This document shows, piece by piece, positions 43,374 to 45,320 of a DNA stretch of 50,729 bases (position 1 is its first letter; the number at the start of each line of letters is the position of its first letter). Source of the DNA: Actinomycetota bacterium (lineage in GTDB: Bacteria; Actinomycetota; JAICYB01); assembly GCA_035536535.1 (NCBI GenBank), contig DATLNZ010000025.1, positions 1 through 50,729 of the forward strand. Direction: 5' to 3'. Below the pieces are notes generated by a model. That model saw only the letters and a list, made by a program, of their open reading frames with translations, ran no database searches and was not told the origin of the DNA. A program made the position numbers and the translations under genes.

Positions 43374-44438
43374 ATGCAAGTCGTACGGGGGTTGGTGGCG
43401 CTCGTCGTCTGCGCTATGTCCGGCGTCACTCCGGCCGGTGCCTACCCGCTTGAGCGGGCTCCGGTGCTTGACCTCGGCGCCACCATGACCTCGACGAAAC
43501 ACCTCCGCGACGCCGAGCTCCTCGCCTCCGACAAGCCTTTTACCGTCCGGGTTCCCTTTGAATGGTCCGATCCCGCGCACGTCGCCGAGCAGCGAATGGA
43601 GGTCGTCAGAGCCGCCGCCGACAGAAACTGGCGGATCGTGGTCAATCTCCGGTACCGGGCACCCAAGAGCGCAGCGGGGCCGGAGCTGCTGAGCGGCTTC
43701 GGCTCGTGGGCCTCCGAGACCGCCTCACGCGTCGCCGCCCTGGCGCCCGCTTCATTCGACGTGAGCAACAGGCCCAACTCGCTGGTCCCCGACGATCCCG
43801 GGTCCGACCCAGCCTGGACAGCTTCGGTGCTGGTCGCCGGAGTGCAGGCCGTGTCTCAGACAGTTCCGGACGCCCGGGTCGGTTTCTCATGGCTGGCCAC
43901 AGGCGACCCGGTCGAGGACGCAGCGTGGTGGGCCGTCATTCGGAGCATGGGCCGCGAGCTGCTTTCCCCTGTGAGCTTCGTCGACGTCCAGCTTTTCCCC
44001 GGGACGCTCACTGTCGGCACTCCATGGGCGCTCGGCGGTCCGCGGGACCAGGTAAGCCAGATCCTGCGCCAGACGAGAAGCATCTACATGCCGCGCGCAG
44101 GACTCGGCCCCGAGATCGACATCGAGGTCGGGGAGTTCGGGGGTCACGCCGGCCAGTACGACGACACCTTTCCGCTGGACGTGGCGCAGCCCGACGCGGA
44201 GGCCCTGATCGCTACACAGGCGGCTCAGCGCCGTCTGCTCGAAGCCGTCCTGGAAGGGGTCAGGGACGCTGCCATGTCGTCGCGCGTCACGTCCGCCGTC
44301 TGGACCTCGCTGGCAGACGAGGGCGGGTGTTCCCTGGCGAAGTGCTGGGGGCTGCTGACGGAGTCGGGGGCCCCGCGGTCGGCGTTTGACGAGATGCGCT
44401 ACCAGATCATTCGCGCAAGCCTCGCCCGCAACTCCTAG
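43374..44438 (+). CDS. Exported TIM-barrel-like protein, possibly an inactive glycosidase
   Basis: A 354-aa protein with a short signal peptide (MQVVRGLVALVVCAMSGVTPAGA). The body resembles a glycoside-hydrolase-type barrel: strands such as WRIVVNLRY, FDVSNRPNS, RVGFSWLATGD, SFVDVQLFPG and EIDIEVGEFGG. In clan-A glycosidases the fourth strand reads NEP with the acid/base Glu; here the matching spot reads NRPN, so that Glu is Arg. The Glu of VGEFGG could be the nucleophile counterpart. It is divergent from the kinase by about 135 bp. The next gene starts ten bases after its stop. The fold call is by eye and not secure. Confidence 0.5.
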   Translation: MQVVRGLVALVVCAMSGVTPAGAYPLERAPVLDLGATMTSTKHLRDAELLASDKPFTVRVPFEWSDPAHVAEQRMEVVRAAADRNWRIVVNLRYRAPKSAAGPELLSGFGSWASETASRVAALAPASFDVSNRPNSLVPDDPGSDPAWTASVLVAGVQAVSQTVPDARVGFSWLATGDPVEDAAWWAVIRSMGRELLSPVSFVDVQLFPGTLTVGTPWALGGPRDQVSQILRQTRSIYMPRAGLGPEIDIEVGEFGGHAGQYDDTFPLDVAQPDAEALIATQAAQRRLLEAVLEGVRDAAMSSRVTSAVWTSLADEGGCSLAKCWGLLTESGAPRSAFDEMRYQIIRASLARNS

Positions 44439-44448
44439 AATCCCCGCG
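44436..44448 (+). promoter_or_regulatory. Leaderless-type -10 element of the chimera gene
   Basis: TAGAAT at 44436-44441 (overlapping the previous stop TAG), CCCCGC, then the GTG at 44448: exact TANNNT-N6-start spacing. Confidence 0.5.
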
Positions 44449-45320
44449 TGCCTTCGGCTGGCGCGGTCCCGGTGCGTCCCCGTGCCTCCTCGGCGCGCAT
44501 GCCCTTGGCAGCTACCGCCGCGTCCGCTCTGCGTCCGTCAGGCCGGGTGCTCCTGATCGACATGGACCCCACGGCCTTGAAGCGAGAACTGAGAGTGCTG
44601 GGCAAGCGGTCCGGCGGGGTCGTGTCGGCGACCTTCGGCAGACCCGTCGCTCGTCGGCTGACGGTGGACCCGACCTGCCTGCCGATGAAGGACCAGTTGT
44701 TCGACGTGATCTCGCTGGAGCCCAGCATCGCCGTGGACCCGGTGCGCACCGCGCGTGAGCTGATCAGGGTGAGCCTGCCTGGAGGAACGATCGTCACAGC
44801 GGGGGAGACCGCGGCGAGCGCGGTAAAGCGCGCGCTGGTGACGCTGGGGTGCCGCCCTCTGCAACGGCCGAGGGATGCCGCCGTCCGGTTGCCCGGCCCC
44901 CGAGCGGGCGCGATGCCCGTCCGCACGACTGGCTTGCCCGGACTGACCGCTGCTCGCGTCCGAGCATGCATCGCCGGGCTGCCGGTCGCCCACGGGTACG
45001 AGGTCGTCGTGAAGCCGCTTCGGTACCGGACGCGTCCGCACGTCCAGGCCTTCTGCGAGTTCGACGCGCGCCTGATCACCATCCAGGTGCCTGTGCCGTT
45101 CCGCCCGTTCGTCGAGCGGGTGCCGTACCGCGCCAAACGCATCAGAGGGAAGGGACTTCGCTTCCGCTGGTTTGAAAGACAGCTGACCTTCGACGACCCG
45201 GAGACGCTGATCAGGTACCTGTACCTGCACGAGTACTACCACTGGTACCTGCGCGAGGTCCTCGGGAGGCCCAGCGCGGCGGAGACGGCCTGCGACCGCT
45301 TCGCGCTCCAGCGCATGTGA
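44448..45320 (+). CDS. Methyltransferase-like / HEXXH metallopeptidase-like chimera
   Basis: A 290-aa protein of mixed make-up. Residues 30-120 resemble part of a class I SAM methyltransferase (GRVLLIDMDPTALKREL; LPMKDQLFDVISLEP; ARELIRVSLPGGTIV), but the glycine-rich SAM loop is missing. Residues 195-290 contain HEYYH (His261, Glu262, His265), followed 13 residues later by Glu279 in AAETACDRFAL, an arrangement similar to SprT or ImmA/IrrE-like zinc peptidases. The domain ends three residues after FAL-QRM, at the stop. I do not know this combination. It could be a DNA-damage or protein-quality protein. GTG 44448 has a -10-like hexamer just upstream. Confidence 0.6.
   Translation: MPSAGAVPVRPRASSARMPLAATAASALRPSGRVLLIDMDPTALKRELRVLGKRSGGVVSATFGRPVARRLTVDPTCLPMKDQLFDVISLEPSIAVDPVRTARELIRVSLPGGTIVTAGETAASAVKRALVTLGCRPLQRPRDAAVRLPGPRAGAMPVRTTGLPGLTAARVRACIAGLPVAHGYEVVVKPLRYRTRPHVQAFCEFDARLITIQVPVPFRPFVERVPYRAKRIRGKGLRFRWFERQLTFDDPETLIRYLYLHEYYHWYLREVLGRPSAAETACDRFALQRM

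Follow-up and report, generated by a model that had tools for sequence, protein, structure and literature searches.

On balance, we favor the reading that the open reading frame at positions 44448–45320 (+) of the window, which is the whole 50,729-nucleotide stretch of DNA that was analyzed, has as its product a putative metallopeptidase with a single zinc, of the minimal HEXXH...E type and working like IrrE or the minigluzincins, in front of which a class I SAM-dependent methyltransferase survives as a remnant. The frame is real: it is open from a GTG start and specifies 290 residues. The fusion of its two parts is also real, being common to two genera. In its present form, the product would most likely act as a zinc metallopeptidase whose N-terminal domain is vestigial, its putative proteolytic activity being read from its motif.

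The C-terminal ∼135 residues (residues 156–290, positions 44913–45317, +) were delimited by alignments and form a conserved domain with the pattern HEXXH-x13-E-T-x-C-D-R-F-A-L. The sequence HEYYH at residues 261–265 (positions 45228–45242, +) contains two predicted zinc-binding histidines and the catalytic glutamate, and it is followed after 13 residues by E279 (positions 45282–45284), the predicted third zinc ligand, within AETACDRFAL (positions 45279–45308, +). This HEYYH-x13-E motif was part of the original prediction and was borne out, whereas the second domain, which had been placed from residue 190 onward, actually starts near residue 156. The H, E, and H of the first segment and the E, D, and F of the second were invariant in 22 of 22 aligned sequences, and the HEXXH-x13-E spacing was the same in all of them, including three distant ones; the relatives do not lack the HEXXH. 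On the basis of composition, only ∼0.002 HEXXH motifs would be expected per protein of this kind, and because both the motif and its spacing are kept throughout the alignment, we conclude that HEXXH-x13-E did not arise by chance.

The domain was searched for in 60 genomes of the phylum and then in 396. As a standalone protein of ∼150 amino acids it was found in 19 other genomes of the same phylum, the gene being present in 15 of 27 genomes of one class and in 4 of 5 of another, and a standalone protein is its usual form. Identity to the window domain was 47 to 58% for the standalone proteins and 68% for a fused ortholog in the genome G002, and an alignment of standalone and fused forms showed that conservation spans the whole domain. 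The standalone proteins continue for a further ∼20 residues, a tail that is missing from the fused ones. The window protein does stop right after the motif, at residue 290, as had been observed previously, but this end reflects the loss of that tail. Members of the domain family gave no meaningful match in Pfam, NCBIfam, PHROGs, or PADLOC, and a PDB sequence search with the domain gave none either; the family is undescribed in these libraries, and this strongly conserved putative metallopeptidase family could deserve an entry of its own. The parts of the fusion protein are of known kinds. A weak hit to HapK/REDY, seen in Pfam for one member (E 0.017) and in the PDB (E 0.23), was judged to be chance. 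A defense system was set aside with no match in PADLOC, as was a viral or plasmid origin, for which IMG/VR held no relative and only two weak Sinorhizobium plasmid matches were seen (E 0.06–0.3). Profile searches also reached a second, distant HEXXH-x13-E clade in family f11 (hhalign link 94.8%, E 5e-8), with members at L037:1069-1716, L090:1465-1872, and L091:1480-1866. This clade is sporadic (3 of 39 genomes), and the L091 member, which has a LexA-like repressor frame nearby, may therefore lie on a mobile element.

Structure prediction gave a divided picture, with the C-terminal domain confident in the AlphaFold2 model of the whole protein and at a pLDDT of 92.4 when modeled alone, but with the N-terminal half poor in the whole-protein model (block pLDDT 31–71). 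The domain model consists, in order, of five strands (of at least 5 residues), a long helix with HEXXH, and a helix that begins at E279. Foldseek searches of the PDB gave no significant match with either the full-length or the domain model; for the domain model, a single metallopeptidase, jannalysin, ranked high in the list (E 1.4, prob 0.14). Among the BFVD viral models, the highest-probability matches to the full-length model were a peptidase (0.98), a SprT-like protein (0.93; target-normalized TM 0.61, E 0.27), and an IrrE-like protein (0.92), all of them not significant at E 0.06 to 0.27. These viral matches are suggestive, short of proof. The domain could instead be a metal-binding hydrolase or a structural protein, as the lack of significant matches to peptidase families or solved peptidase folds might imply, but we consider this unlikely given the HEXXH-x13-E motif with its glutamate invariant in 22 of 22 sequences, a strand and helix layout as expected for zincins, and the peptidase nature of the most probable structural matches.

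Within the HEXXH zincins of the Glu-ligand type, defined by HEXXH and a downstream invariant glutamate, the domain belongs by sequence in all 22 aligned cases, and the original prediction had likened it to SprT and IrrE peptidases. The comparison with IrrE holds in part. The zinc ligands of IrrE are His82, His86, and Glu113 (PMC5552922), and the window protein resembles the ImmA/IrrE group (IrrE of Deinococcus, COG2856; Peptidase_M78) in having HEXXH with a downstream glutamate as predicted third ligand and in counting an IrrE-like protein among its best viral fold matches; it differs in that the glutamate comes 14 residues past the second histidine, compared with 27 in IrrE, and Pfam M78 matched none of the 9 scanned family members. 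The comparison with SprT fares less well. SPRTN coordinates zinc through His111, His115, and His130 (PMC5128726), and the likeness consists of a small HEXXH domain and the SprT-like viral match mentioned above, whereas the third ligand in the present family appears to be an invariant glutamate, there being no invariant histidine after HEXXH in the aligned members and no match to Pfam SprT-like in the 9 scanned. The apparent Glu ligand argues against strict SprT membership, which is not supported. WLM and SprT domains have been described as similar to minigluzincins (PMC4559962), and with these (jannalysin, 4jix; abylysin, 4JIU) the domain would share a minimal soluble HEXXH peptidase scaffold, the fold match to jannalysin being not significant. 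The nearest description of the domain is IrrE-like or minigluzincin-like, and it is filed in none of the named families of the class.

The fusion was looked for in relatives and was found in G002, a genome of the same family as the window, where a 393-aa protein (L015:4893-6071, on contig JAICYB010000038.1) has a methyltransferase domain with the intact SAM site VLDVGCGTG followed by the same HEYYH domain. Its match to Methyltransf_11 was strong (E 9.6e-22, 77.9 bits; cut-off, 21.2 bits), and the window ORF matches it from about residue 29 on. The kinase and glycosyltransferase neighbors occur in matching order in the window and in G002, and on this basis the two genes are orthologous. The junction RLPGPRAGAMPVR of the window protein can be aligned with RVPGPRTGSMPIR of the G002 ortholog, and synteny together with this homologous junction argues for shared descent of the fusion. 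From these two genomes, it would appear that the fusion is older than the split of the genera and that the loss of the SAM loop was secondary; the intact form is taken as ancestral because its motif is the one seen across the wider methyltransferase family. The claim that no protein of this layout is known holds insofar as no library used recognizes the C-terminal domain and our literature search found no paper describing such a fusion, but not within the family, where G002 has it. In a third genome of the family, G001, the gene order is the same (thiolase, glycosyltransferase, kinase, secreted protein), but the contig stops 132 bp after the secreted gene, exactly where the fusion would start, so this genome is uninformative on its presence. 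The corresponding gene in the window (positions 43521–44438, +), upstream of the fusion gene, codes for an orphan protein, probably secreted, that matched no Pfam family above the cut-off. Among 60 genomes, a relative was seen only in G001 (46% identity, same gene order); the gene is absent from G002, where the fusion gene directly adjoins the kinase gene. Another methyltransferase gene (L058:4377-5543, +) lies ∼2 kb from the G002 fusion gene, and its product is 36% identical to the methyltransferase half of the fusion protein; the fused copy may have come from this gene.

On the basis of profile and ortholog alignments, residues 31–120 of the window protein (positions 44538–44807, +) correspond to a degenerate class I methyltransferase core. 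The N-terminal part aligns with residues 76–140 of the L015 protein (44% identity, E 2.6e-7), and tblastn with residues 37–139 also finds the ortholog (E 1e-7). Matches of residues 24–121 to Methyltransf_31 and Methyltransf_11 were weak and below the cut-off (E 0.03–0.06), the Methyltransf_11 score of 14.4 bits falling short of the curated threshold of 21.2, and both profiles were entered after motif I. At the motif I site the window copy reads GRVLLIDMDPTAL and not GRVLDVGCGTGFVL (VLLIDMDPT compared with VLDVGCGTG in the ortholog), and it has neither GxGxG nor the strand-2 acidic residue of class I SAM methyltransferases of the UbiE-like Methyltransf_11/25 type, which L015 matches strongly; motifs that follow the SAM loop are kept (LTVD..LP..DQ.FDVI..DP...RELIRVSLPGGTIV). 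By its sequence, motif I is altered or lost. A clean deletion was considered, because the Pfam matches start after the motif, but in-place alteration fits the L015 alignment at least equally well (GRVL...GKR.G.VV). Relative to L015, the N-terminal ∼36 residues are lost, the core is ∼15 residues shorter, including the strand-2 acidic stretch, and the linker (residues 121–155, positions 44808–44912, +) between core and junction is shortened by ∼73 residues, so that ∼90 residues and the N terminus have been lost, always in frame. A frameshift masking an intact methyltransferase was rejected: tblastn with L015 residues 1–275 gave matches in the same frame only, and nothing for residues 1–36. Judged by these alignments, the N-terminal third is what decay has left of a class I methyltransferase, and through the syntenic ortholog with its intact domain it shares common descent with Methyltransf_11 members. 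A methyltransferase-derived segment without its SAM loop had indeed been predicted, but the loopless layout is not a standing architecture; since the G002 ortholog still has the loop, the window copy is the eroded form.

We propose that a ∼150-aa HEXXH protein, standalone in other lineages, was joined to the end of an intact methyltransferase in an ancestor of the window's family. The methyltransferase of the window lineage has since lost its SAM loop, N terminus, and ∼90 residues by in-frame changes, while the HEXXH domain retains 68% identity to the ortholog and every predicted catalytic residue. Going by the motif and the known chemistry of zincins, H261, H265, and E279 would bind zinc, E262 would activate water as general base, and a protein substrate would be cleaved in the cytoplasm. 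What is left of the Rossmann fold would be unable to bind SAM, and any role would be limited to docking or structure. The Rossmann motifs that it keeps could nevertheless mean that the N-terminal part still functions. It is possible, though not our preferred view, that the truncated part is a maintained pseudoenzyme module, for docking of substrate or nucleic acid or for regulation, that steers the peptidase: the core motifs LTVD..LP..DQ.FDVI..DP..RELIRV.LPGG are kept with a coding-like GC pattern, and every deletion is in frame, but this half is modeled with low confidence (block pLDDT 31–71), the truncated form is known from a single genome, and a decaying domain 5′ of a selected one would likewise stay in frame. 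Rather doubtful is the broader proposal that these minimal zinc peptidases form a new family limited to a few little-sampled actinobacterial classes, and that in one lineage an acquired methyltransferase was turned into a pseudoenzyme, blind to SAM, for targeting or regulating the peptidase. Together, the G002 and window copies offer a clean example of two domains becoming fused and one of them then decaying, and they would permit testing whether a dead methyltransferase fold persists for targeting.

The beginning of the reading frame differs from the remainder. Residues 1–30 (positions 44448–44537, +) are probably untranslated or unconserved, with no homology, a pLDDT of 31–41, and a GC content by codon position of.77/.80/.73, which is noncoding-like, compared with.64/.46/.90 further in; the coding pattern is kept in residues 31–120 and 156–290. 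Alternative starts exist at residue 18 (ATG, 44499) and residue 34 (GTG, ∼44547), and the true start may be near one of these instead of the drawn GTG, the base composition making residue 34 possible. This noncoding appearance, together with a draft assembly of 205 contigs, might suggest a pseudogene in the window, or an odd N terminus produced by an artefact of assembly or start calling, either of which we regard as very unlikely because a frame of ∼260 codons is open with coding GC3, the catalytic residues are fully conserved, and several separate in-frame changes occurred with no frameshift.

Near the standalone gene, a tRNA-Pro(TGG) was present within ∼5 kb in all seven f7 loci examined, together with genes for TetR (5 of 7), trigger factor (4 of 7), and ClpX (3 of 7). 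This neighborhood hints at, without showing, a proteostasis or regulator-cleaving role, and the position may be merely inherited. No methyltransferase gene was a conserved neighbor of the standalone gene, only L069 having one within 2 kb. A second HEXXH frame lies at ∼7280 (−) of the window and reads HEFGHTFGLGH; the extended HExxHxxGxxH motif is typical of metzincins.
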